DNA of 64,000 nucleotides, taken from contig CALMYJ010000004.1 of NCBI GenBank assembly GCA_937873715.1, positions 138,722-202,721 on the forward strand. Direction: 5' to 3'. The stretch comes from an uncultured Chitinophagaceae bacterium (GTDB lineage: Bacteria > Bacteroidota > Bacteroidia > Chitinophagales > Chitinophagaceae). This document shows, piece by piece, positions 11,482 to 25,020 of the stretch. The position numbers and the translations under genes are program-made. Under the pieces are notes generated by a model. That model was not told the DNA's origin, did no database searches, and saw only the letters and a list, made by a program, of their open reading frames with translations. Position 1 is the first letter of the stretch, and each line of letters begins with the position of its first letter.

Positions 11482-12900
11482 TTATTTTAAAAAGAAAGAC
11501 ACAATCATATAGATAAGGCCAGCCAGCAGGGCACTAACAGGTATGGTTAAAATCCAGGCCCAGAGCAGGTTTACCGTTACACCCCAGCGTACAGCGCTAA
11601 GCCTTTTGGTGGCGCCTACACCAATAATGGAGCCGGTAATAGTGTGTGTGGTACTTACGGGTATACCCATTTGTTCGGTAACAAAAAGTGTAAAGGCGCC
11701 TGAGGTTTCGGCAGCCACCCCTTCCAGCGGTGTTACTTTGGTGATTTTGGTGCCCATGGTTTTTACAATCTTCCAGCCGCCGCTCATGGTACCCAGGCCA
11801 ATGGCTGTATAGCAGGCAAGCGGTACCCAGGTTAACTCTTTTAATACAGCTGATGAATCGGCATATACGCCGGTGCCATAGTAGGCAACATAGGCTGCGG
11901 CTATAATACCCATTACTTTTTGGGCATCGTTGCCGCCATGCCCCACGCTAAATGCTGCGGAGGAAAACAACTGTAGTTTTTTAAACATATTGGCAATGCG
12001 ATAGGCATTGGGTGTTTTTACTTTTTCAACATACAGGTAGGTTAAAATAAATACGGCAACCAGGCCGAATATTACATAGGTCTGTATGCTGTTATCAGCT
12101 TTATCCAGTGCTTTTGCAAGTTTGTGACTGTCGATATTGGGGTCAACTTCTGCTTTAATTTTTTCTGCCAGCTTTTCGCCGCCCAGTTTGTTAAAGGAAG
12201 AGAGTAAGGGGGTTACGGCATTGGCGGCATTAATGGCCTGCTGTAATTGTACTGTAGCGGCAGGGTTAGTTTTGGCTTCTTTTTCGAGTACATCTACATT
12301 ATAGTATTTGGCAACATTATTTTTCAGTTTATCCATCTGGTAAAACTGAAAGAGGAACCAGGTGCCGGCGGTGGCTAAAAGTATCAGGCCAATTTTAAGC
12401 CAGGTATTACGCATAATGGTAATTACGGTAATGAATATAGATACCACCATGCCAATGAGTGGAGCCAGGAAAATGAAGAAGAGTATTTTTAGGATATACT
12501 CCATTTCGAGAATGATATTGAAATTACCTACACCCTTTTTTACGAGTGCATGGGTTATTGCTGCTCCTGCAAAGCCACCAATAAGTGTATGAGAGGAGGA
12601 AGAAGGGATACCATACCACCAGGTAAGCAGGTTCCAGAAGATAGCAGCTATAAGGCCGGATAATATAACAGGTAGTGTAATAAATTCGGCATGTACTGTT
12701 TTGCCGATGGTGTTGGCTACAGCATGATCTTTAAAAATGAAAAATGCTACAAAGTTGAAAAATGCGGCCCATATTACAGCTTGTACCGGTGTTAATACCT
12801 TGGTGGATACGATGGTGGCAATAGAGTTGGCTGCATCATGAAACCCATTAATGTAATCGAAGAGGAGCGCCAGTATGATGATAACAATAAGCAGTGTCAT
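11482..12900 (-). CDS. Inorganic phosphate transporter, Pit family
   Basis: A 472-residue PiT-family symporter. It carries the two family signatures in inverted halves: FDYINGFHDAANSIATIVSTKVLTP near the N-terminus, and VGHGGNDAQKVMGIIAAAYVAYYG plus GIPVSTTHTITGSIIGVG in the C-terminal half. It moves phosphate with a cation across the inner membrane with low affinity. A hydrophilic stretch of about 80 residues sits between the halves. It lies 72 bp downstream of a DUF47 gene, the usual partner of Pit in bacteria. Confidence 0.94.
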   Translation of the reverse strand: MTLLIVIIILALLFDYINGFHDAANSIATIVSTKVLTPVQAVIWAAFFNFVAFFIFKDHAVANTIGKTVHAEFITLPVILSGLIAAIFWNLLTWWYGIPSSSSHTLIGGFAGAAITHALVKKGVGNFNIILEMEYILKILFFIFLAPLIGMVVSIFITVITIMRNTWLKIGLILLATAGTWFLFQFYQMDKLKNNVAKYYNVDVLEKEAKTNPAATVQLQQAINAANAVTPLLSSFNKLGGEKLAEKIKAEVDPNIDSHKLAKALDKADNSIQTYVIFGLVAVFILTYLYVEKVKTPNAYRIANMFKKLQLFSSAAFSVGHGGNDAQKVMGIIAAAYVAYYGTGVYADSSAVLKELTWVPLACYTAIGLGTMSGGWKIVKTMGTKITKVTPLEGVAAETSGAFTLFVTEQMGIPVSTTHTITGSIIGVGATKRLSAVRWGVTVNLLWAWILTIPVSALLAGLIYMIVSFFLK

Positions 12901-12972
12901 AATAATAGTATTGGCAAATCTGTTATTTCGGGTGGGCGCAATTTGGCAGATTATGCATGAACTGATTGTGTT

Positions 12973-13623
12973 TTAGGCGTATTTCACAATGATAGATTCT
13001 ATAACGTTGGCTGCATCTTCACATTTATCAGTAGCTATTTCGAGTACCTGGAAAATTTCTCTTTTTTTAATCACTTCTTTGGCATCGGTTTCTTCGGCAA
13101 AGAGGCGTTCAATGCTGGTGTCAAAAACGTCGTCGCCCTGGTTTTCGATACTGTTAATGGCTACTAGTGCATCTGTTATCTGCCGCATATTTTTCATATT
13201 CCTCAGTTCGGTAACGGCTTTATTTACCTGCACGCAGCCAATAGAAATTAATTCAGCCATTTTGCGAATCCCGGGGTCGTTGGGGTTTACCCGGTAAAAG
13301 TTAATTTTTTTGGCTGAGGCATAAATATAATCAGCAATATCATCCAGTGCAGATGCTAAATAATGTATGTCTTCCCGGTCGAAGGGTGTAATAAAGTTTT
13401 TGCCCAGTTCGGTGAAGATGTTATGGGTAAGGTCGTCGTTAACATGCTCCATATCTTCCAGGTCTTTTATAAGCTGGCCTCTTTTCTCAAAATCGGGTTC
13501 GTTAACGATTTGCTTGAGTTTTTCGCCCATTTTTACCAGTTCGCCAGATACGCTTTCAAATAATTGATAGAAAACCCTGTCCTTCGGTAAAAAAATTTTT
13601 AAAATGGAGTTGAGCCCGGCCAT
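12973..13623 (-). CDS. DUF47 family (PhoU-like) protein, Pit accessory
   Basis: A 216-residue all-helical protein of the DUF47/PhoU-like family. Motifs are LEDMEHVNDDLTHNI, TPFDREDIHYLASALDDIADYIY and ATDKCEDAANVIESIIVKYA, matching the duplicated metal-binding E/DxxxD helices of PhoU-like proteins. DUF47 genes nearly always precede pit genes and are thought to modulate the transporter; here the pair is in that order with a 72-bp gap. A TATTTTTG element on the minus strand (13640-13647) could be the -7 box, though a -33 box is not evident. Confidence 0.92.
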   Translation of the reverse strand: MAGLNSILKIFLPKDRVFYQLFESVSGELVKMGEKLKQIVNEPDFEKRGQLIKDLEDMEHVNDDLTHNIFTELGKNFITPFDREDIHYLASALDDIADYIYASAKKINFYRVNPNDPGIRKMAELISIGCVQVNKAVTELRNMKNMRQITDALVAINSIENQGDDVFDTSIERLFAEETDAKEVIKKREIFQVLEIATDKCEDAANVIESIIVKYA

Positions 13624-14041
13624 GTTTTGAGAATTTCGGCAAAAATAACTGTAATCAGGGGTATCCTGTTTGCCTTTCTATAATTAATAATTACATAACA
13701 TCGGCAAGCCAGAAAAAATGTGTAACTGAAGGCAGCGGTATAATTTCAGACGAAAAGGGCACCATATTTTTTTAATATTTCGGGGCGAAGGCAGGAATTT
13801 AAATAAACTGTTAATTTTTCTTTCAAATTTTGATGTAAACAAAGGATCTGTTGATTTTTTCTGATAATTCTCGATAAAATCTTCAAATTATTTTCATAAT
13901 TGTAAAAAATGTACTTAAAAGTGAAGAATTTGTACACATCATGCAGCGTGCCAAAATGGTTTTTTGTCTGCAACTTTATGTAAAGGATTGTTAAATCTTT
14001 TATATTTAGGCTTTATTATTCTTTCTAACCAAAACACAATT
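13624..14041. other. Long AT-rich intergenic region between divergent DUF47-pit and susCD operons
   Basis: This 418-bp gap separates divergent operons and should contain both promoters. It is strongly AT-rich. TATATTTA at 14001-14008 is a near match to the -7 element, placed for a susC transcript, but a good -33 box is missing. A 75-residue open frame on the minus strand (13746-13973) has low-complexity composition and no recognisable family, so I do not call it. I found no 11-bp repeats like those upstream of the gene at 20192, and no tRNA. Confidence 0.5.
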
Positions 14042-17000
14042 ATGAGAAAAATTGCAGTATTGCTATTAGCGATGTGTATCTTCTCGGGTACATCCACCTA
14101 CGCACAAAAAACTAAAGTAACAGGTAAAGTAACTGATGCCAGCACCGGTAAGCCGGTATTTGGTGCCACTGTACAGGGTAAAGGCGATGGTGCCAGTACC
14201 GTAACAGATGCAGATGGTACTTTTAGTATTGATTTACCAGCCAAAGTATCTACGCTATTGTTTAGCTCGGTTGGATACAAATCAGCAGAAATAAAGATTA
14301 CAGGAAGTAACCTGATGGTAACGCTTGCGCAGGGTGTTGATCAACTGCAAGAGGTAATTGTAACCGGCTTTGGTACCAAAATTAAAAGAGATGTTACCGG
14401 AAGTTTTTCAAGGGTAAAAGCCAAAGAAATAGAGAATATGCCCGTAGCCAGCGTTGATGCTGCCATACAGGGCAGGGCTGCTGGTGTAATGGTAAACAGC
14501 CAGTCTGGCAAACTTGGCCAGGCTGTTACAGTACGTATCCGCGGAAACTCCTCTATTAGCGCAAACAGCCAGCCGCTTTATGTGGTAGATGGTGTACCGG
14601 TTACCACCGAAAGTCAAAGCTCTTATGGTGGCGCCATGAATCCACTTACAGATATCAACCCTAACGATATTGAATCTATCGATGTGTTAAAAGACGCTTC
14701 TGCTGGCGCTATATTTGGTGCCCGTGCTGCAAATGGCGTAATACTTATTACCACCAAAAGGGGTAAAGTAGGTAAAACATCTATAAACTTCAGTTATCAA
14801 ACAGGTACTTCCAAAGAAACCAGGAGGGTAAAGTTTTTAAATGCGGAGCAATATTCAGAATTATTTCAGCGTGCCACTACCTGGTATGATAATCGCTTTG
14901 GTGTAGATCCGAATGATCCCGCCAGCGAAACCAGTTTTGCGAAAGACTGGATGGCTTACCACAGTTTTGATCAATGGCTGACCGACCCTACAAAAAGTTA
15001 CGACTGGCAGGACCAGGCTTTTCAAAAAGGCAGGTTTAACCAGGCTGATTTATCCCTGAGTGGAGGTAATGAAAAAACGAGGTTTTTTGGGTCATTACAA
15101 ATCCAGGATCAAACAGGTATTATGGTTGGAAACGATTTGAACCGTATTTCAAGTCGCATTAATGTTGACCATACCGCAAACAAGTGGTTAACAGTTGGTT
15201 TTACTACAGCTTTGGCCCGTACTATGAACCGCAGGCTGCCTGATGATAATGCTTTTTCCAATCCACTTCAATCAATTGCTTTTATGCCGGTAACACCGTT
15301 TACCGATCCTAATACAGGCTTGCCAACAGGCACACCTCCCGGTGATTTAAATGTTGGTTTGTATTATAACCCTCGTCTCACTGTGGATTATGCAAGGTTT
15401 AAGCAAGAGGTTTTTAGAAATTTAAGCAATGTATTTGCAACTGCTAAAATTACCGGAGGATTGAGTTATCATACCGAATTTGGTGCAGATATATTAAGCC
15501 AAAATGAAGAAGGCTTTTTCCAAAGCCAAACAAGGCGTAACCAAACCCGTGCTTTTCAGCCAACAGGTGTTGGTATTGGTATCAATCGTTCAGCATTTGT
15601 AATAAATTATAATACCAATAATTATTTTAATTACAACGAAACCTTTGGTGAGCATAATATAGATGCTACTTTAGGTATGAGTTACCAGTCGAGCCAGTCA
15701 AAATATAATTTTACTGAGGGTGTCGATTTCCCATCCGATTCTTACCAGAAAATTGCCAGTGCAGCCACCAAATCAAATGGTAGTTCCTCTGAAACTAACT
15801 TCCGTTTCCTGTCTTATTTTACCAGGGTAAACTATAAGTTTAAAGATAAATACCTTGCTACCCTTAGCGTAAGAAGGGATGCATCCTCACGTTTCGGTAA
15901 AAACTCAAGGTATGGTTACTTCCCCTCAGGCTCTTTAGGATGGGTATTATCTGAAGAAAACTTTTTTTCTCCAGTTAAAGCCGTTAGCTTCCTGAAAGTA
16001 AGAGCAAGTTATGGCAGGGTGGGTAATGCAGAAATAGGCAACTTCCCACAGTTAGGTTTATTTAGTGGTGATGCCGGTTATGCAGGTAATGCAGGTCAGC
16101 GTCCTACACAAATTGCTAACCCAAATTTACGCTGGGAAACCACCGATCAATTTGATGTAGGTCTTGACTTCGGGCTCTTTGGAAACAGGATTACCGGTGA
16201 ATTAGACTATTACGTTAAAAAAACATCCGGCCTGTTACTGAATGTGAATGTACCGGCAACTACTGGCTTTACAACCCAAACCAAAAATGTTGGTAAACTC
16301 GAAAACAAAGGGTTTGAATTAGTATTAAATACTCAAAACCTTATCGGTAAATTCAACTGGAATACTACTATTAACCTCGCCAACAACAGGGGCAAGGTAG
16401 TGGATATCCAGGGACAGATTATTGAAGGCGGTATCTCCAGTATGAACCGTGTTATGGAAGGGCAGCCTGTAGGTGTATTTTATACAGTAGAGTGGGCTGG
16501 TGTAAATCCTGAAAATGGTGACGCCCAGTTTTATACCAATACCGTAGGCCAGGACGGGCAACTGGTAAAAGATAAAGTGAACGGTGCCGGATACAATGCT
16601 GCTCAAAGAGTAGTAGTTGGTGATCCTAATCCCGATTATATTTTTGGGGTTACCAATAGCTTCTCTTATAAAGGCATCGACCTGTCGGTGTTCATCAATG
16701 GCGTTTGGGGCAACCAGTTGAATATTTATGGTATGGGTCGTTATTCCTCTGCCAACTTCAGGTTTGAGGATAACCAAACTGCTGACCAGATTAATGCCTG
16801 GACAACTCCCGGACAAATTACAGATATACCACAGGCACGCTGGTTATCAAACAATGGCGCACAGCTCAGCAGCCGTTATATTGTAAATGGATCTTACGCA
16901 AGAATCAGGACGGTAACATTAGGCTATACATTACCTGCCAAAATGCTTTCAAGACTAAAACTTGAAAGGGTAAGAATATATGCATCTGCTTTAAACCTGC

Positions 17001-17137
17001 ATACATTTACCAACTATCCTTACTGGGATCCTGAAGTAAATGCAGATTCATTTGACTCGAACATTGCAAAGGGCAACGATTTTTATACACCACCACAACC
17101 CCGAACAATACTTTTCGGTATCAACATCGGATTATAA
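14042..17137 (+). CDS. SusC/RagA-type TonB-linked outer membrane protein
   Basis: A 1031-residue outer-membrane importer. A signal peptide (MRKIAVLLLAMCIFSGTSTYA) is followed by a carboxypeptidase-regulatory-like domain (about 25-100, VTGKVTDASTGKPVFGATV), the SusC plug signature around LQEVIVTGFGTKIKRDVTGSFSRV, and PLYVVDGVPV, INPNDIESIDVLKDASAGAIFGARAANGVILITTKRG. The rest is a large TonB-dependent barrel. With SusD it would import a bulky substrate. The start is set at 14042 because the upstream frame extension from 13964 lacks a signal peptide. No glycoside hydrolase genes accompany the pair, so a polysaccharide substrate cannot be assumed; neighbouring phosphate transport genes leave a phosphorus-related substrate possible. 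Confidence 0.95.
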   Translation: MRKIAVLLLAMCIFSGTSTYAQKTKVTGKVTDASTGKPVFGATVQGKGDGASTVTDADGTFSIDLPAKVSTLLFSSVGYKSAEIKITGSNLMVTLAQGVDQLQEVIVTGFGTKIKRDVTGSFSRVKAKEIENMPVASVDAAIQGRAAGVMVNSQSGKLGQAVTVRIRGNSSISANSQPLYVVDGVPVTTESQSSYGGAMNPLTDINPNDIESIDVLKDASAGAIFGARAANGVILITTKRGKVGKTSINFSYQTGTSKETRRVKFLNAEQYSELFQRATTWYDNRFGVDPNDPASETSFAKDWMAYHSFDQWLTDPTKSYDWQDQAFQKGRFNQADLSLSGGNEKTRFFGSLQIQDQTGIMVGNDLNRISSRINVDHTANKWLTVGFTTALARTMNRRLPDDNAFSNPLQSIAFMPVTPFTDPNTGLPTGTPPGDLNVGLYYNPRLTVDYARFKQEVFRNLSNVFATAKITGGLSYHTEFGADILSQNEEGFFQSQTRRNQTRAFQPTGVGIGINRSAFVINYNTNNYFNYNETFGEHNIDATLGMSYQSSQSKYNFTEGVDFPSDSYQKIASAATKSNGSSSETNFRFLSYFTRVNYKFKDKYLATLSVRRDASSRFGKNSRYGYFPSGSLGWVLSEENFFSPVKAVSFLKVRASYGRVGNAEIGNFPQLGLFSGDAGYAGNAGQRPTQIANPNLRWETTDQFDVGLDFGLFGNRITGELDYYVKKTSGLLLNVNVPATTGFTTQTKNVGKLENKGFELVLNTQNLIGKFNWNTTINLANNRGKVVDIQGQIIEGGISSMNRVMEGQPVGVFYTVEWAGVNPENGDAQFYTNTVGQDGQLVKDKVNGAGYNAAQRVVVGDPNPDYIFGVTNSFSYKGIDLSVFINGVWGNQLNIYGMGRYSSANFRFEDNQTADQINAWTTPGQITDIPQARWLSNNGAQLSSRYIVNGSYARIRTVTLGYTLPAKMLSRLKLERVRIYASALNLHTFTNYPYWDPEVNADSFDSNIAKGNDFYTPPQPRTILFGINIGL

Positions 17138-17207
17138 TGTTTCATGCATTGCATCAACATTTTAAGTGGTTTAAAAAATAATTGTCCTTAATCAAAACAA
17201 AAAAATT

Positions 17208-18572
17208 ATGAAAAAATACATTTTAGCTTCACTACTACTTGCAGTGCTTACGGTAGGATGTGAAAAGAAATTAGACGTACTCCCTACGCAGAGTATCGAC
17301 CAGGAAAATGCGTTGTTAACAGAAGGTGATATTTTAGTAACCCTTGTGGGCTGTTATGATGGTATGCAGGGTGCTGCAACTTATGGTGGCGACATCATGG
17401 TACTCAATGAGTTGATTGGTAACTCAGATGATATACGCTTTACCGGTACATTCGCCGGCCTTTCCGATGCCTATCGTTTAGAAATGACTAACACCAACAC
17501 CTTTGCAAGAGATACATGGATTGGCGCTTACAACACCATTAACCGTTGTAACAATGTGCTGTCTGCTATCGACAGGATTACATCTTCCGCCACACTTAAG
17601 GCCAGGGTTGAAGGTGAAGCATTATTCATCCGCTCAACCATGTATTTTGAATTAGTGTGCTTGTTTGCAAAAACATGGGGTGATGGGGATAATGCCACCA
17701 ATCCGGGTGTTCCTCTTGTATTAACACCTACCGCAGGTGTAACCGATGCTGACTATAAGGCCCGCAGTTCTGTAGCAGAAGTATACAACCAGGTAAAAAC
17801 CGATTTAACCCGTGCTGAATCGCTATTGCCTGCTTCCAATGGTATTTTTGCTACTAAAAATGCTGCTTTGGCCATATTGTCGAGGGTGGCATTGATGCAG
17901 GGCGATTATGCTGCTGCAAGGGATTATGCTAATACTGTAATTGCTTCAGGCAGGCATACACTGGCTACTACTTTTGATGGAGCCTGGTTTACATTTATCA
18001 ATAACACGGGCAATAGCCCCTCGGAGTATGTATTTTCAATGAAAGTTACAGCCCAGGATGGTACCAATAGCTTGAATACCTATTTTGGTATTAATGCAGG
18101 TGCAGGAACCGCCGGCCGTGGAGATTGTAAAATACAAAATGCACATCTTGCAAAATATGAAGCTGGGGATGCAAGGGGTACTTATTTTACCGTTGTAGGT
18201 GGAAACAACTATACAAGGAAACATTTAGACAGGTATGGCAATGTGGCTGTAGTACGCTTAGCAGAGCTTTATTTAACCAGGGCCGAAGCCAATTTCAGGC
18301 TGGGTACAGAAGTAGGCGATACACCATTAAATGATGTTAACCGTATTCGTACCCGTTCTTCCCTAACTGGTTTGGGTACTGTTACGTTAGCAGATATTTT
18401 AAAAGAAAGATACCTGGAAACTGCATTCGAAGGCAACAGGCTTCATGATATTAAAAGAACCAGGGGTACACAATCTGGTACAGCATGGAATTCTCCTAAA
18501 TTAATACTGCCAATTCCTCAGCGTGAAATTGACGTGAATAAGAATTTGGTACAAAACGAAGGATATTTTTAG
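17208..18572 (+). CDS. SusD/RagB-type surface lipoprotein
   Basis: A 454-residue substrate-binding lipoprotein partner of SusC. The signal peptide ends in the lipobox LTVGC (Cys18). Helical tetratricopeptide-like SusD features include IGAYNTINRCNNVLSAI, EALFIRSTMYFELVCLFA, AALAILSRVALMQGDYAAARDYAN, RLAELYLTRAEANFRLG and the C-terminal ILKERYLETAFEGNRLHDIKR and ILPIPQREIDVNKNLVQN. It is 70 bp downstream of susC and followed by a strong terminator, so the operon has only these two genes. It would cap the SusC barrel on the cell surface. Confidence 0.94.
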   Translation: MKKYILASLLLAVLTVGCEKKLDVLPTQSIDQENALLTEGDILVTLVGCYDGMQGAATYGGDIMVLNELIGNSDDIRFTGTFAGLSDAYRLEMTNTNTFARDTWIGAYNTINRCNNVLSAIDRITSSATLKARVEGEALFIRSTMYFELVCLFAKTWGDGDNATNPGVPLVLTPTAGVTDADYKARSSVAEVYNQVKTDLTRAESLLPASNGIFATKNAALAILSRVALMQGDYAAARDYANTVIASGRHTLATTFDGAWFTFINNTGNSPSEYVFSMKVTAQDGTNSLNTYFGINAGAGTAGRGDCKIQNAHLAKYEAGDARGTYFTVVGGNNYTRKHLDRYGNVAVVRLAELYLTRAEANFRLGTEVGDTPLNDVNRIRTRSSLTGLGTVTLADILKERYLETAFEGNRLHDIKRTRGTQSGTAWNSPKLILPIPQREIDVNKNLVQNEGYF

Positions 18573-18786: not shown

Positions 18787-20091
18787 TTGAGGAAACTTTT
18801 TTTAATCTTTTTAATGCAGGCATGCTGCACCTGCCAAAGCCATGCCCAGTTTTTGATGGACCTGTTAGATACTACCAAAGAGGCCGGGAAGGGGCTGCTG
18901 GGGGTGTATCAAAAATTTGATCGGGTACGTATTGGGGGATATATACAGCCCCAGTTTCAACTGGCACAGTCGCAGGGTATCAAAAGCTATGAAGGGGTTG
19001 ATTTTGCAGCCAATGTCAATAACCGTTTTATGCTGCGGCGCAGCCGGATACGAATAGATTATCTGCACATGCAGGGCGAAGGCGAAGACCCGGGCGTGCA
19101 AATCGTATTTCAGTTTGATGCTAATGAACGACGCTTTACCCTCAGGGATGTTTGGGGCAGGGTGTTCGAAAATCATTTCAAATTATTTTCTTTAACTGCG
19201 GGCATGTTTGCCCGGCCTTTTGGGTTTGAAACCAACTTAAGCAGCAGCGACAGGGAAACCCCTGAAAGGGGTCGTATGAATCAAATCCTGATGCGTAGCG
19301 AAAGAGACCTGGGTGCTATGATAACCCTTGATGCCCGCAAGCAGGTTTCATTCCTCCGGCATATTAAAATAGATGCCGGTTTTTTTAACGGCCAGGGTAT
19401 TAATGCCGAAGGCGATTTTGATAACCGAAAAGATTTTATAGGACGCATTGCATTAAAGCCGCTGCAGCTTAATACCAAAATTACGCTTGCTGCAGGCACC
19501 TCTCTGCTGTATGGTGGGTTACTCCAAAATACCCGTTATGCTTTCAGCACGGTGGATCAGGATGGTTTTAAAAAAGTAATAACCGACTCTGCAGCCACCA
19601 ATAAAGGCAGGTACTCTCCACGCACTTATAAAGGGGCCGATGTACAGTTGAAAATTAACAACAGCAAAGGCGCAACTGAATTGCGGGCCGAATATATTTA
19701 CGGGGTACAAACCGGTACGGCTAATAATACCGAAACCCCGGTGGCACTTGTTAATGGCAGCGATGGTTTTTACCGGCGCAATTTTGCAGGGGCTTATTTT
19801 TATTTCCTGCAACATCTTTTTTCCAGCCAGCACCAGTTAGTATTAAAGTACGACTGGTATGACCCCAACACTAAAGTAAAAGACCGTGAAATTGGCGTAC
19901 CAGGCAGCAATTTTACAGCAGCCGATATTAAGTACAGCACTTTTAATATTGGCTATAATTATTATATACAGCCCCTGGTAAAACTTAGCCTCTTTTACGC
20001 CATCATAAAAAATGAAGCTACCCTGCTGGAGGGTTATGAAGCCGATTTAGCTGATAACGTGTTTACTGCAAGATTGCAGTTCAGGTTTTAG
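18787..20091 (+). CDS. Phosphate-selective (OprO/OprP-type) outer membrane porin
   Basis: A 434-residue predicted beta-barrel with a signal peptide. Features include RIGGYIQPQFQLAQSQG, NRFMLRRSRIRIDY, VQIVFQFDANERRFTLRDVWG and LTAGMFARPFGFETNLSSSDRETPERGRM, which resemble the phosphate-selective porin O/P family. A C-terminal aromatic residue (TARLQFRF) ends the barrel. The only start giving a signal peptide is TTG at 18787; the first ATG (18814) would remove most of it. The gene follows the susCD terminator and precedes, by 100 bp, a TonB receptor with Pho-box-like repeats. Anion or phosphate uptake is inferred from family and context. Confidence 0.85.
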   Translation: MRKLFLIFLMQACCTCQSHAQFLMDLLDTTKEAGKGLLGVYQKFDRVRIGGYIQPQFQLAQSQGIKSYEGVDFAANVNNRFMLRRSRIRIDYLHMQGEGEDPGVQIVFQFDANERRFTLRDVWGRVFENHFKLFSLTAGMFARPFGFETNLSSSDRETPERGRMNQILMRSERDLGAMITLDARKQVSFLRHIKIDAGFFNGQGINAEGDFDNRKDFIGRIALKPLQLNTKITLAAGTSLLYGGLLQNTRYAFSTVDQDGFKKVITDSAATNKGRYSPRTYKGADVQLKINNSKGATELRAEYIYGVQTGTANNTETPVALVNGSDGFYRRNFAGAYFYFLQHLFSSQHQLVLKYDWYDPNTKVKDREIGVPGSNFTAADIKYSTFNIGYNYYIQPLVKLSLFYAIIKNEATLLEGYEADLADNVFTARLQFRF

Positions 20092-20098
20092 GGTGCGC

Positions 20099-20161
20099 TT
20101 AACATTGCGGTAACATTGCCATAACATTTCGGTAATTAGGCATTTACATTTCCATAACATT
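20099..20161 (+). promoter_or_regulatory. Six tandem 11-bp-spaced TAACATT repeats: Pho-box-like operator
   Basis: TAACATT occurs at 20100, 20111, 20122 and 20155, TTACATT at 20144, and a degenerate TAATTAG at 20133: six units at exactly 11-bp spacing. Direct 7-bp repeats with 4-bp spacers are the established geometry of PhoB/PhoP binding sites. The last unit ends 7 bp before a near-consensus -7 element, TCTCTTTG (20169-20176), so the array occupies the -33 region, as activator sites do in Pho promoters. The downstream ATG is at 20192. Binding by a PhoB homologue is inferred. Confidence 0.75.
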
Positions 20162-20191
20162 GAAGGCATCTCTTTGCACAAAATTTAAGGC

Positions 20192-22999
20192 ATGAGATTG
20201 TTAAATGTTTTGTTACTGGCCGGGCTTGTTTTTTTGTCTGCTTCTTCATTCGCCCAGTCTGTTCAGTTATCTGGTAAAGTACTCAATTCACGCAATGAAC
20301 CGCTGCTTTCTGCCAGCATCACTATTACGCCTTCATCTAAAAAAGTGATTACCGATGCCGAAGGTAAATTTGTGGTAACACTCGAGCCTGGTACAAAATA
20401 TACATTCACCATAAGCCATGTTGGCTATGATGCCAAAACCATTACTGAAATACAGGCCACAAGAGGTCAGGATAATTACCTGGATGTGGTGCTGGAAGAG
20501 AGTTCAAAAAATAAACTAACGGAAGTAACTGTACGCTCTGCTCCACGTCGCCAGGAAAATACCAGTGCCCTGCTGGCTTTTCAAAAAGGCAATACGGCTT
20601 TATCCAGTGTACTGGCTGCCGATTTTATTCGTCGTACACCTGATAAAAATACCGGTGAGGTATTGCGCCGTGTAAGTGGCACATCAATACAGGATAATAA
20701 GTTTGTAATTGTAAGGGGCCTTGGCGACCGGTACAATTCTGCCTACATCAATGGCGCTCCTCTGCCAAGCAGCGAGCCGGATAAAAAAGCGTTTTCATTT
20801 GATGTTATCCCATCCGCACTAATCGATAATATCATCATCAATAAAACGGCCACGCCCGACCTCACCGGCGAATTTGCCGGAGGCCTTGTTCAAATACAAA
20901 CAAAAGATATACCCGTAAGCAGCCAGTTAATGATTGGGGCATCTGTAGGCTATAATACTCAAACGAGGTTTAGAGATTTTACCAGCAACGAACGTGGTGC
21001 CACTGATGCATTGGGCTTTGATGACCGCCGCTCACTACCAGCCGCTTATCCAACAAAATATCTTGACTATTCAAAACTGTCGGCTGCAGAAAAAGTGGCC
21101 GTTACACAATCTTTCAGGGATGATGTGTACAGGGAAGTGCAGTCGCAGGCCACTCCTATACAAACGTATAACCTCACCTGGGCCAATGTAGCCCGTAAAA
21201 ACAATGGCAGCCAGTTTGGTACAGTCATCGGCCTAACCTACAGGCACTCCAAATTGTTGTACAGTGCTACTAAAACACTTTACGAAAAGGGCGCAACCGG
21301 CCAGGCATTTTTTGATTATACCGATGAGCAGAATAAATACAATGTAAACTGGGGCGGTGTAGCCAACTTTGCATGGAGTTACAAAAAACATAAAATAGCT
21401 TTTAAAAATCTCTTCAACCAGTTATTTGAAGACAACTACTACACCCGTACCGGCATCAACACCGAAAACCTCCAGGATGTACAAATGCGTTCGTCGGTGC
21501 TCAACCAGCGCAGCCTGTATGCCTCACAGTTAGAAGGTACACACCAGGTAACCCGGAAGGATATCAAGCTTACCTGGAACCTCAACTACTCTATGAATCT
21601 TAAAAACCAACCAGATTTAAGGGTACAAACTTATGGTAAATCCATTGGCATCAACGAGCCTTTCCGTATCAACTTAAGGGGCAATAATACCAACCGCTTT
21701 ACCAGCAACCTTACAGATCATGCATTTGGTTATAATGTATCTGCTGCCGTGCCTTTTGAAATGGGCGGAAAAAAACAGTTGTTTAAAATTGGTGGTGCCG
21801 CAACAGCACGTATACGTGATTTTAAAGCATTCATCTTTGGTTTTACAGAGCCTAATAATGCAGCACTAAATTCACTGCCTTTCGACCAGATATTCCTGAG
21901 GCAGAATATGAATGAAAATGGCTTTATGATTTCTACTGATTTGCAAAATGCCCAGGATAAATATTATGGTGCTTCAGTACTTTCAGCAGGCTACCTGATG
22001 TTTGACAACAAACTTTCTGATAAAATCAGGTTAGTGTGGGGCTCAAGGTTCGAAAATTTTGAGCAGTTCATGAAATCAAACACACAGGGTACAGATAAGG
22101 CACAAATTGTAAATACCGACAAATTTGATGTACTGCCGTCAATGAACCTTACATTCAGCCCGGGTTCAAAAACGAATATCCGCCTCGGTGCATCCCGTAC
22201 TGTGGCAAGGCCCGAGTTTAGAGAAATAGCACCATTTACCTTCTTCGACTTTGAGCAAATAGCGTCTACCGCCGGTAACCCCGATTTAAAACGCAGCAGC
22301 ATACTAAATGCCGATATACGGTACGAGTGGTATCCTAAGGCTGGTGAGGTACTTTCTTTTGGAGCTTTTTATAAAAACTTTGCAGATCCTATCGAGTTGA
22401 GGCTTAATAGTGCCAGTGTGGCCACCAGGCGCCAATACCAGTTTCAGAATGCGGAAAAGGCAACACTGTTTGGTCTTGAGGCCGAATTCAGGAAAAATCT
22501 TTCTTTCCTTTCCGCTAATGCCGGCTGGTTAGAGAACCTGTATTTCAATGGTAATCTTTCCATGATTTTTTCAGAAGTAGCGCTGGGTAATGTAGATGTG
22601 GACGGCAATAAACTTCCCCCCACTACAAGGCCCCTGCAAGGCCAGTCGCCTTACCTGATTAATGCCGGCTTTCAGTATGACGGTAAAAAGGGTACCAACT
22701 TTTCTTTACTCTACAACAGGATAGGCGAACGCCTGGTACTGGTAGGTAATGATGACTTTGGTGATATTTACGAGGTACCCCGGCATTTGCTCGACTTCCA
22801 GGTAAGCCAAAAAGTACTGGATAAAAAAGGTGAGATACGCCTTACCGTTAGCGACATCTTTAACCAGCATGTAGCCGCATTCGAAAACAGGGATGATAAG
22901 CGTACTTACAATGCTGCAACCGATAAATATTTTACAAGGTATAAACCCGGTACAACCATTACCATAGGATTCAACTACAATTTCGATTTAAAAAAATAA
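20192..22999 (+). CDS. TonB-dependent outer membrane receptor with carboxypeptidase-like N-terminal domain
   Basis: A 935-residue receptor. A signal peptide (to SSFAQ) is followed by a carboxypeptidase-regulatory-like domain (about 24-105), a plug with RRVSGTSIQDNKFVIVRGLGDRYNSAYINGAPLPS and FAGGLVQIQTKDIP, and a beta-barrel ending in TITIGFNYNFDLKK. It is not of SusC type and has no SusD partner; the next gene encodes a beta-helix lipoprotein. The six 11-bp repeats immediately upstream suggest expression under phosphate limitation. The substrate is probably a phosphorus compound or metal phosphate, but this is inference. Confidence 0.93.
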   Translation: MRLLNVLLLAGLVFLSASSFAQSVQLSGKVLNSRNEPLLSASITITPSSKKVITDAEGKFVVTLEPGTKYTFTISHVGYDAKTITEIQATRGQDNYLDVVLEESSKNKLTEVTVRSAPRRQENTSALLAFQKGNTALSSVLAADFIRRTPDKNTGEVLRRVSGTSIQDNKFVIVRGLGDRYNSAYINGAPLPSSEPDKKAFSFDVIPSALIDNIIINKTATPDLTGEFAGGLVQIQTKDIPVSSQLMIGASVGYNTQTRFRDFTSNERGATDALGFDDRRSLPAAYPTKYLDYSKLSAAEKVAVTQSFRDDVYREVQSQATPIQTYNLTWANVARKNNGSQFGTVIGLTYRHSKLLYSATKTLYEKGATGQAFFDYTDEQNKYNVNWGGVANFAWSYKKHKIAFKNLFNQLFEDNYYTRTGINTENLQDVQMRSSVLNQRSLYASQLEGTHQVTRKDIKLTWNLNYSMNLKNQPDLRVQTYGKSIGINEPFRINLRGNNTNRFTSNLTDHAFGYNVSAAVPFEMGGKKQLFKIGGAATARIRDFKAFIFGFTEPNNAALNSLPFDQIFLRQNMNENGFMISTDLQNAQDKYYGASVLSAGYLMFDNKLSDKIRLVWGSRFENFEQFMKSNTQGTDKAQIVNTDKFDVLPSMNLTFSPGSKTNIRLGASRTVARPEFREIAPFTFFDFEQIASTAGNPDLKRSSILNADIRYEWYPKAGEVLSFGAFYKNFADPIELRLNSASVATRRQYQFQNAEKATLFGLEAEFRKNLSFLSANAGWLENLYFNGNLSMIFSEVALGNVDVDGNKLPPTTRPLQGQSPYLINAGFQYDGKKGTNFSLLYNRIGERLVLVGNDDFGDIYEVPRHLLDFQVSQKVLDKKGEIRLTVSDIFNQHVAAFENRDDKRTYNAATDKYFTRYKPGTTITIGFNYNFDLKK

Positions 23000-23048
23000 T
23001 TTCTTAAACAGTACAAAAATGAAACCAGTTCAAACAACAACACTTAAT

Positions 23049-24416
23049 ATGAAAAGGACATTAGCCCTGATGGCTGTAGTAGCGGCAACCTTTACCAGTT
23101 GCTTAAAGATTAACATCGATGATTCTGTAACCAACAATGGCGGCGCAGTAGGTACCGGTACACTTGAAGAGCGTATCATAGCCACCAAAATTATTACAGG
23201 TATTATTGATGAGGTAGTAGAACTGCCAAAAGCTAAATACATCCTCAAAGGTTATGTATATGTAAATAACAGGGCCACTATTCGTTTTGCAGCCGGCTCT
23301 GTAATTGTTAGCGATACTATTCAAAAAGGCGCACTGATTGTTGAAAGAAATTCGAGGCTGTATGCTGAAGGCACTGCTGCTGAACCTATCGTATTTACCT
23401 CTGGTAAACCAGCCGGGCAGCGTAAACCAGGCGACTGGGGTGGTATAGTACTGCTGGGCAGCGCACCTACCAACCGTAGTACAACACCAATTATTGAAGG
23501 TGGCATCAATAGTGAATATGGCGGAAGCCTTGCTGCTGATAACAGTGGTGTACTTAAATATGTGCGTATCGAATTTGCCGGTATTGCTGCCGACCCTAAC
23601 TCCGAAATTAACGGGCTTACCTGCGGTGGTGTTGGCAATGGTACCATTATCGAAAATGTACAGGTATCTTATGGTAACGATGACGCTTTTGAATTTTTTG
23701 GTGGTACTGTAAACTGTAAAAATATTATTGCTTACGCAACAGCCGATGATGATTTTGATTTCGACTTTGGCTATACCGGCCGTTTGCAATTTGGTATATC
23801 GCTCCGTGATCCGCTGTTTGTAGATCCAGGTGATGCAGGTAATGGTATCGAATGTGATAATGACGGTTCAGGTACTGTAGCTGCTCCAAGAACTAAACCC
23901 GAATTGAGCAACTTTACTTTCTGCGGACCTAACAATGCTGCCGGTACACTTGCTAACCATAATTTCAATACACGCTGGAGGCGTTCTACCCACTTCCTGC
24001 TGAATAACTCAATATTAATTGGTTATCAAAAAGGTGGCTTCCAACTGGAAAGCGATTCTACCGCACAGGCATATATCGATGGCCGCTCACGCTTCCGCCA
24101 CAACCTGGTGCATGCTGTAGTTGAGCCTTATAAATCTGGCTCTGCATTAATTACTGTTGCTGCTATGCAAACCAAGGCCGAAGGCGCCGACAGTTGCAAA
24201 ACTTATACAGATTATACTGCTATACAATTAGAAAATCCATTAAGCCTTAGCACTCCAAACTTTACACCAAAAGCAGGCAGCCCTGCATTGAATGGTGCCA
24301 GCTTTTTTGGTATGAATGCCTTCTTTAGCCGTGTTACATACATCGGTGCAGTGGGTGGTGCTACTAACTGGGTTAGCGGCTGGACAAGCTTTACACCACA
24401 AACAAACGTATACTAA
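23049..24416 (+). CDS. Beta-helix-like surface lipoprotein partner of the TonB receptor
   Basis: A 455-residue secreted protein with a lipoprotein signal (MKRTLALMAVVAATFTSC). The start at 23049 puts the lipobox at residue 18; an in-frame ATG at 23019 gives a less regular signal. The mature part has the PIVFTSGKPAG - GDWGGIVLLGSAP pattern and repeated short strands (VLKYVRIEFAG, TIIENVQVSYGNDDAFEFFGG, NCKNIIAYATADDDFDFDFGY) typical of right-handed parallel beta-helix proteins. The acidic DDDFDFDF stretch could bind calcium. It follows the TonB receptor by 49 bp and a strong terminator follows it, so the two form an operon. The function is unknown; a surface substrate-binding role like SusD is plausible. 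Confidence 0.85.
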   Translation: MKRTLALMAVVAATFTSCLKINIDDSVTNNGGAVGTGTLEERIIATKIITGIIDEVVELPKAKYILKGYVYVNNRATIRFAAGSVIVSDTIQKGALIVERNSRLYAEGTAAEPIVFTSGKPAGQRKPGDWGGIVLLGSAPTNRSTTPIIEGGINSEYGGSLAADNSGVLKYVRIEFAGIAADPNSEINGLTCGGVGNGTIIENVQVSYGNDDAFEFFGGTVNCKNIIAYATADDDFDFDFGYTGRLQFGISLRDPLFVDPGDAGNGIECDNDGSGTVAAPRTKPELSNFTFCGPNNAAGTLANHNFNTRWRRSTHFLLNNSILIGYQKGGFQLESDSTAQAYIDGRSRFRHNLVHAVVEPYKSGSALITVAAMQTKAEGADSCKTYTDYTAIQLENPLSLSTPNFTPKAGSPALNGASFFGMNAFFSRVTYIGAVGGATNWVSGWTSFTPQTNVY

Positions 24417-24489: not shown

Positions 24490-25020
24490 ATGAACAATAA
24501 GTTTTTAATACGCTGCGCCATAATGTTTGTGGGTATTTTTGTGTCGTGCAACAGCCATGATACAGCCGCAACAAAAAGCGATACCCATGTTACAGATACC
24601 CAGGCGCCTGCAGCAAAAGTACCGGTTACCACAGTTGAAATTGATACCCGGCTACAGCTTATCGACAGCCTCATTTTTGTATTTTACAAAGATCCTTACA
24701 GCAAAGATTCCCTGCGTTATTCCCGTTTTTATACGCAGTATAGTTCTACAGATAGCAGCCTGGTGCAGGCATTAATAGATAATACCATGCTGCCATTTGT
24801 TAAGCTTGAAAAGGTAAAGCCATGCCGTAATGAAGGAAAGCTGTGGTGTTATGGCGGGGGTAAAATTTTACAAACAATATACTTTTCTACCCTTGCACCA
24901 GCGTGCAGCCATATTTACCTGATTAAAGACGGCTTTTTTTATTATAGTCCTTTACAAGAAAGTTTGCTGCAAGTATTGAAAAAATTAAAACCACTATCTA
25001 AAGCGCCTGCTGCTGCATAA
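24490..25020 (+). CDS. Small lipoprotein of unknown function
   Basis: A 176-residue protein with a signal peptide ending in VGIFVSC (Cys20), a threonine/alanine-rich linker, and a compact domain from about residue 55. That domain contains four cysteines in its second half (KPCRNEG, LWCYGGG, APACSH), some perhaps in disulfides. I do not recognise a family. It lies right after the terminator of the TonB receptor operon and could be reached by read-through, or have its own promoter in the very short gap. It is convergent with the transglutaminase-like gene. Confidence 0.75.
   Translation: MNNKFLIRCAIMFVGIFVSCNSHDTAATKSDTHVTDTQAPAAKVPVTTVEIDTRLQLIDSLIFVFYKDPYSKDSLRYSRFYTQYSSTDSSLVQALIDNTMLPFVKLEKVKPCRNEGKLWCYGGGKILQTIYFSTLAPACSHIYLIKDGFFYYSPLQESLLQVLKKLKPLSKAPAAA

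Follow-up and report, generated by a model that had tools for sequence, protein, structure and literature searches.

A candidate multi-unit Pho box of Bacteroidota type upstream of a TonB-dependent receptor operon

The receptor locus and its repeat array

The window (the whole 64-kb stretch of DNA analysed here) contains a gene for a TonB-dependent receptor, which is preceded by short direct repeats and followed by a lipoprotein gene. The nearest named relatives point to a Chitinophagaceae-type genome. The features of this region are given below.

11482..13623, minus strand: DUF47/PhoU_div gene and PHO4-family phosphate transporter gene (PF01865, PF01384)
18787..20091, plus strand: porin O/P-type gene (PF07396), directly upstream of the array
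20100..20161, plus strand: six-unit direct-repeat array (candidate Pho box), 7-bp units with 4-bp spacers, read directly
20169..20176, plus strand: -7-like promoter box TCTCTTTG, matching TAnnTTTG at 5 of its 6 fixed bases
20192..22999, plus strand: TonB-dependent receptor, 935 aa (PF13715 CarboxypepD_reg, PF07715 Plug, PF14905 OMP_b-brl_3)
23019..24416, plus strand: lipoprotein with a predicted beta-helix fold, 465 aa, directly after the receptor
24490..25020, plus strand: small putative lipoprotein, 176 aa; 8 named loci have a homologue downstream of the lipoprotein

A sequence-only reading of this DNA described six TAACATT repeats with an exact 11-bp period. The plus strand carries TAACATT at 20100, 20111, 20122, and 20155, and TTACATT at 20144. 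The remaining unit, TAATTAG at 20133, is degenerate and lies in the same register as the TWACATT units. The array therefore has one 11-bp register shared by five good units and a weak one; the exact period holds for all of them, while the count of six TAACATT units was slightly generous. The spacers inside the array partly resemble one another (GCGG, GCCA, TCGG). Seven base pairs separate the end of the last unit (20161) from the -7-like box, and the position which that reading assigned to the array before a near-consensus box is confirmed. TAnnTTTG is the -7 consensus of Bacteroidota (PMC7366714).

The best NCBIfam match of the receptor is TIGR01782, below the cut-off of that family. A homologue of the lipoprotein is kept beside the receptor in nearly all named loci. 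The lipoprotein has no Pfam match, and a sequence search with its family matched no solved structure. Its AlphaFold model (pLDDT 89.9) has a strand-rich fold, which we read as a predicted beta-helix, and weakly resembles pectate lyases, Pel9A among them (best E = 2e-3, TM 0.43). The 176-aa putative lipoprotein, likewise without a Pfam match, is possibly encoded by the last gene of the unit. The PHO4-family transporter and DUF47/PhoU_div genes lie ~6 to 9 kb upstream of the receptor region. Between these transporter genes and the porin gene there is also a SusC/SusD pair (13964-18572); since no 11-bp array precedes the pair, its link to phosphate is only positional.

Conservation of the period and promoter geometry

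In the window, the two-unit pattern with at most one mismatch had three matches, every one of them within the array, against an expectation of 0.45; 1 of 100 shuffles reached three. The perfect three-unit pattern occurred once in the whole 3.86-Mb genome, at the array. Furthermore, a profile made of 31 arrays, all from other genera, returned the array as its top genome-wide match (E = 3e-6; runner-up, E = 1.8). A site before a diacylglycerol kinase gene (C3:47499) was indistinguishable from chance (profile E = 1.8).

Conservation was assessed in a named set of 80 loci, mostly from Chitinophagaceae and Sphingobacteriaceae, with 76 scorable receptor-family genes. With a plain consensus instead of a matrix (score of at least 17 of 21, up to 220 bp upstream), three-unit 11-bp arrays were found upstream of 66 of the 76, a count of loci that share descent and are not independent events. 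The control periods (8-10 and 12-14) gave 1 to 5; the relaxed consensus is identical when reversed. Among relatives of the genome, 25 of 26 receptor orthologues had an 11-bp array above the 99% shuffle level (other periods, 0 to 2). In a phylum-wide sample, including families outside the class, the count was 28/29 (other periods, 0 to 3); the training data of the unit matrix came from the named set together with the window and a single relative, so that this sample lay outside the training. The fitted unit is [G/C]NTAA[C/T]ATT, and the testable consensus is GNTAACATT at an 11-bp period. Many Chitinophagaceae orthologues have five or six in-register units with weak middle units, like the window; across relatives, the number of units varies and the middle units are often weak.

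The distance between the array and the promoter is also conserved. In the window, the proximal unit and the -7 box start 14 bp apart (20155 and 20169). When all offsets from 3 to 24 bp were allowed, the best-scoring unit started either 14 bp (38 promoters) or 3 bp (24 promoters) ahead of the -7 box in 62 of the 64 named promoters that could be scored, and the same two offsets accounted for 11/11 scorable promoters of the phylum sample; the rule covers scorable promoters, as 16 named and 18 phylum promoters gave no scorable box-array pair. The two offsets differ by one 11-bp step. The repeat units of the window occupy the site expected for the -33 TTTG. In relatives, porin arrays lie 16 bp from the -7 box, and non-receptor matches are mixed in register; therefore, the fixed geometry is claimed for receptor promoters only. 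A fixed offset is what an activator touching RNA polymerase would need, and the geometry suggests such a contact. We lean towards a phylum-wide Pho box in which GNTAACATT recurs every 11 bp, the proximal unit lies 14 (or 3) bp before TAnnTTTG and replaces the missing -33 element, and promoter strength is perhaps tuned by the gain or loss of whole units, 11 bp at a time.

Phosphate genes, the candidate regulator, and alternative explanations

The matrix trained on receptor promoters found 11-bp arrays upstream of 22 of 28 plcP orthologues (other periods, 0 to 2). In marine bacteria, plcP is expressed under phosphorus starvation and often lies beside a glycosyltransferase gene, and its deletion in one marine bacterium showed that lipid remodelling depends on it (PMC4796936). 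A two-unit TTAACAATTTRATAATA-like element precedes 28/29 phoB orthologues at a nearly constant distance, against a background of 3%. Of 248 genomes of the phylum, only 6 contain the exact element TTAACAATTTRATAATA; thus, for phoB, the claim extends to close relatives only, and the looser receptor-promoter array alone looks phylum-wide. In the present genome, the sole other perfect two-unit match lies between the phoB-phoR-like pair and the plcP-like metallophosphoesterase/glycosyltransferase genes (L047:2610-6437). The receptor array is the only strong array of this genome; its plcP and phoB sites are two-unit and weaker.

In 59 genomes of the genus, there were 108 three-unit matches, compared with 33 for the reversed control pattern. 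Genes following these matches include those for the receptor, porin O/P, PlcP, PAP2, a PstS-like protein, and a second type of receptor. Since PAP2, PstS-like, and second-receptor genes became classes only on inspection of the matches, the independent classes are plcP, porin, phoB, and lipoprotein. None of the 18 unshared control matches checked lay upstream of these gene classes. About one-third of the array matches have no assigned phosphate-type gene downstream, and chance matches are therefore among them. A PstS search over 60 genomes turned up just two close relatives, which makes pst unusable for such a test. The enrichment upstream of phosphate genes that the sequence-only reading had proposed as a check was thus found, mostly in related genomes, for the receptor family, plcP, phoB, porin O/P, PAP2, and a PstS-like gene.

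The genome also has a phoB-phoR-like system that itself carries a site. This pair begins at G000:C4:228609 (L047:2610-4438; C4:228.6-230.4 kb), and the receptor gene lies at C4:158.9 kb. The best matches of both proteins are of PhoB/PhoR type, yet they fall under the curated cut-offs (PhoB-like protein, 226 bits versus 296 bits for TIGR02154). The two-unit element upstream of the phoB-like gene matches at 14 of 16 bases. Most likely, these genes encode the cognate pair of the array.

PhoB/PhoP Pho boxes are direct 7-bp units with an 11-bp period near promoters of phosphate genes. The array resembles those of E. coli PhoB, Bacillus PhoP, and cyanobacteria in its 7-bp units and 4-bp spacers, its 11-bp period (kept in the orthologues), its place near promoters of phosphate genes, and its occurrence alongside a likely cognate phoBR system. 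In contrast to the E. coli Pho box with its TGTCA core, the units here read TAACATT (consensus GNTAACATT) and lack TGTCA. They also differ from known Pho boxes in number, with up to six or seven in-register units, and in their register with a TAnnTTTG -7 box, where the known sites have a sigma-70 -10 box.

The Pho box as a kind is known, and a core for the PhoP of the Bacteroidota member Riemerella anatipestifer, TTTAACA, is published (PMC9603813); it has TAACA in common with the unit described here. This PhoP binds DNA upstream of phoPR, the operon that encodes it (PMC9603813). The available text of that report describes neither an array nor a promoter geometry of the kind found here. The suggestion that the present motif could define that of Bacteroidota is therefore partly pre-empted. 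Our literature search found no Bacteroidota consensus giving both period and promoter geometry, though papers beyond that search may contain one.

A closer parallel in gene content comes from the PUSIV/phoBR cluster of Flavobacterium johnsoniae (Fjoh_0541-0549), where a receptor gene is followed by that of a beta-helix-type lipoprotein near an OprP gene (PMC8115612). On phosphate depletion, the receptor and the lipoprotein rose by log2 8.0 and 9.9, respectively, and the OprP gene did not rise (PMC8115612). Our locus likewise has a PF07715/PF13715/PF14905 receptor and a beta-helix-type lipoprotein near a porin O/P gene, a likeness of domain make-up. In contrast to F. johnsoniae, phoBR is not in the same cluster here and lies ~68 kb off, beside plcP and a glycosyltransferase gene. 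The main text of the F. johnsoniae paper mentions no motif (PMC8115612). No array lies upstream of the porin O/P gene of the window, although several relatives have one before theirs; an array before the receptor and none before the porin agrees with the OprP gene of F. johnsoniae not rising.

Several other explanations of the array were weighed. Slippage can generate short tandem units, and the partly alike spacers are what a slipped or accidental repeat without function might leave. Yet orthologues throughout the phylum, with protein identities of 30-40%, kept the period while their spacers diverged, and the fixed distance to the -7 box also speaks against a functionless repeat. The chance expectation is far below the observed matches; a chance repeat is ruled out by the window shuffles, the genome-wide pattern and profile searches, and the conservation, and we give a functionless origin hardly any credence. 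Repression, in which a bound regulator blocks the promoter, could be read from the many Sphingobacteriaceae orthologues in which the last unit, at offset 3, shares bases with the -7 box. In the window, on the other hand, the units sit upstream of this box, at the expected -33 position, and the similar F. johnsoniae genes rise on phosphate depletion (PMC8115612), which makes repression very improbable.

It might also be argued that the array binds another regulator of the OmpR family, responding for example to redox state, metals, or envelope stress, and that phosphate genes make up just one part of what it controls. Direct repeats of ~11 bp are general in this family, and the six Trans_reg_C proteins of the genome include other candidates. 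For the R. anatipestifer PhoP, one motif, compared with that of ArcA, was reported from 583 peaks, along with many non-phosphate targets (PMC9603813, as far as the available text goes). Against this stand the element before the phoB gene itself in 28/29 relatives and the repeatedly phosphate-linked targets of the array. We consider another regulator unlikely, although less so than repression.

The array is thus, with high probability, a multi-unit Pho box that acts as a phosphate-starvation switch of the receptor operon. The claim of a Bacteroidota-type Pho box is supported by the conserved period, the arrays shared with plcP and phoB, and the fixed -7 offset, all of which are read from the DNA. 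At low phosphate, a PhoR-type kinase would phosphorylate a PhoB-type regulator of the OmpR family, which would bind the 11-bp repeats head to tail. From the proximal unit, which starts 14 bp ahead of the -7 box, the regulator would stand in for a -33 element and recruit RNA polymerase, switching on the receptor and the beta-helix lipoprotein. Both proteins probably aid the uptake or release of phosphorus compounds at the outer membrane; organic phosphorus as their substrate is no more than a guess.

In soil, plants, and water, Bacteroidota play an important part in scavenging organic phosphorus, and the literature searched says little on DNA recognition by their phosphate regulator. A consensus with period and geometry could allow phosphate regulons, including receptor/lipoprotein pairs, to be predicted from sequence across the phylum. 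It also opens a route to understanding how promoters that lack a clear -33 box are activated.

Further array-associated genes in related genomes

The second receptor type (~1100 aa) has strong three-unit arrays, some with 0 mismatches, at L163, L195, L196, L197, L199, L203, L207, and L230; the two proteins scanned contain OMP_b-brl_4, PF25183. It is a likely further member of the regulon. In one genus relative, a perfect three-unit array lies immediately upstream of a Sulfatase/phosphodiesterase-family gene (L209:1577-3970), a candidate phosphate-regulated esterase. Array-like sites also occur 137-148 bp before 215-aa genes starting MGLNS or MGLKS (L083, L084, L097). These are probably the DUF47/PhoU_div gene neighbouring the receptor, and it is possible that the DUF47-PiT operon is under array regulation.

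In Pedobacter and relatives, a TAACATAATSATAATATTAATTTAAC-type array is found ~66 bp before the gene of a small lysine-rich protein of ~100 aa beginning MKKNKSKSKNHSASKK (L133, L137, L138, L139, L147, L148, L151, L156). Several genus relatives carry a conserved tgtgatttaaatgtgcatag followed by a three-unit array 3' of the lipoprotein gene (L182, L184, L193, L217, L222, L175), which points at a terminator-like hairpin of the lipoprotein operon. A gene starting MKWV apparently begins across from this array, which is inverted relative to it.
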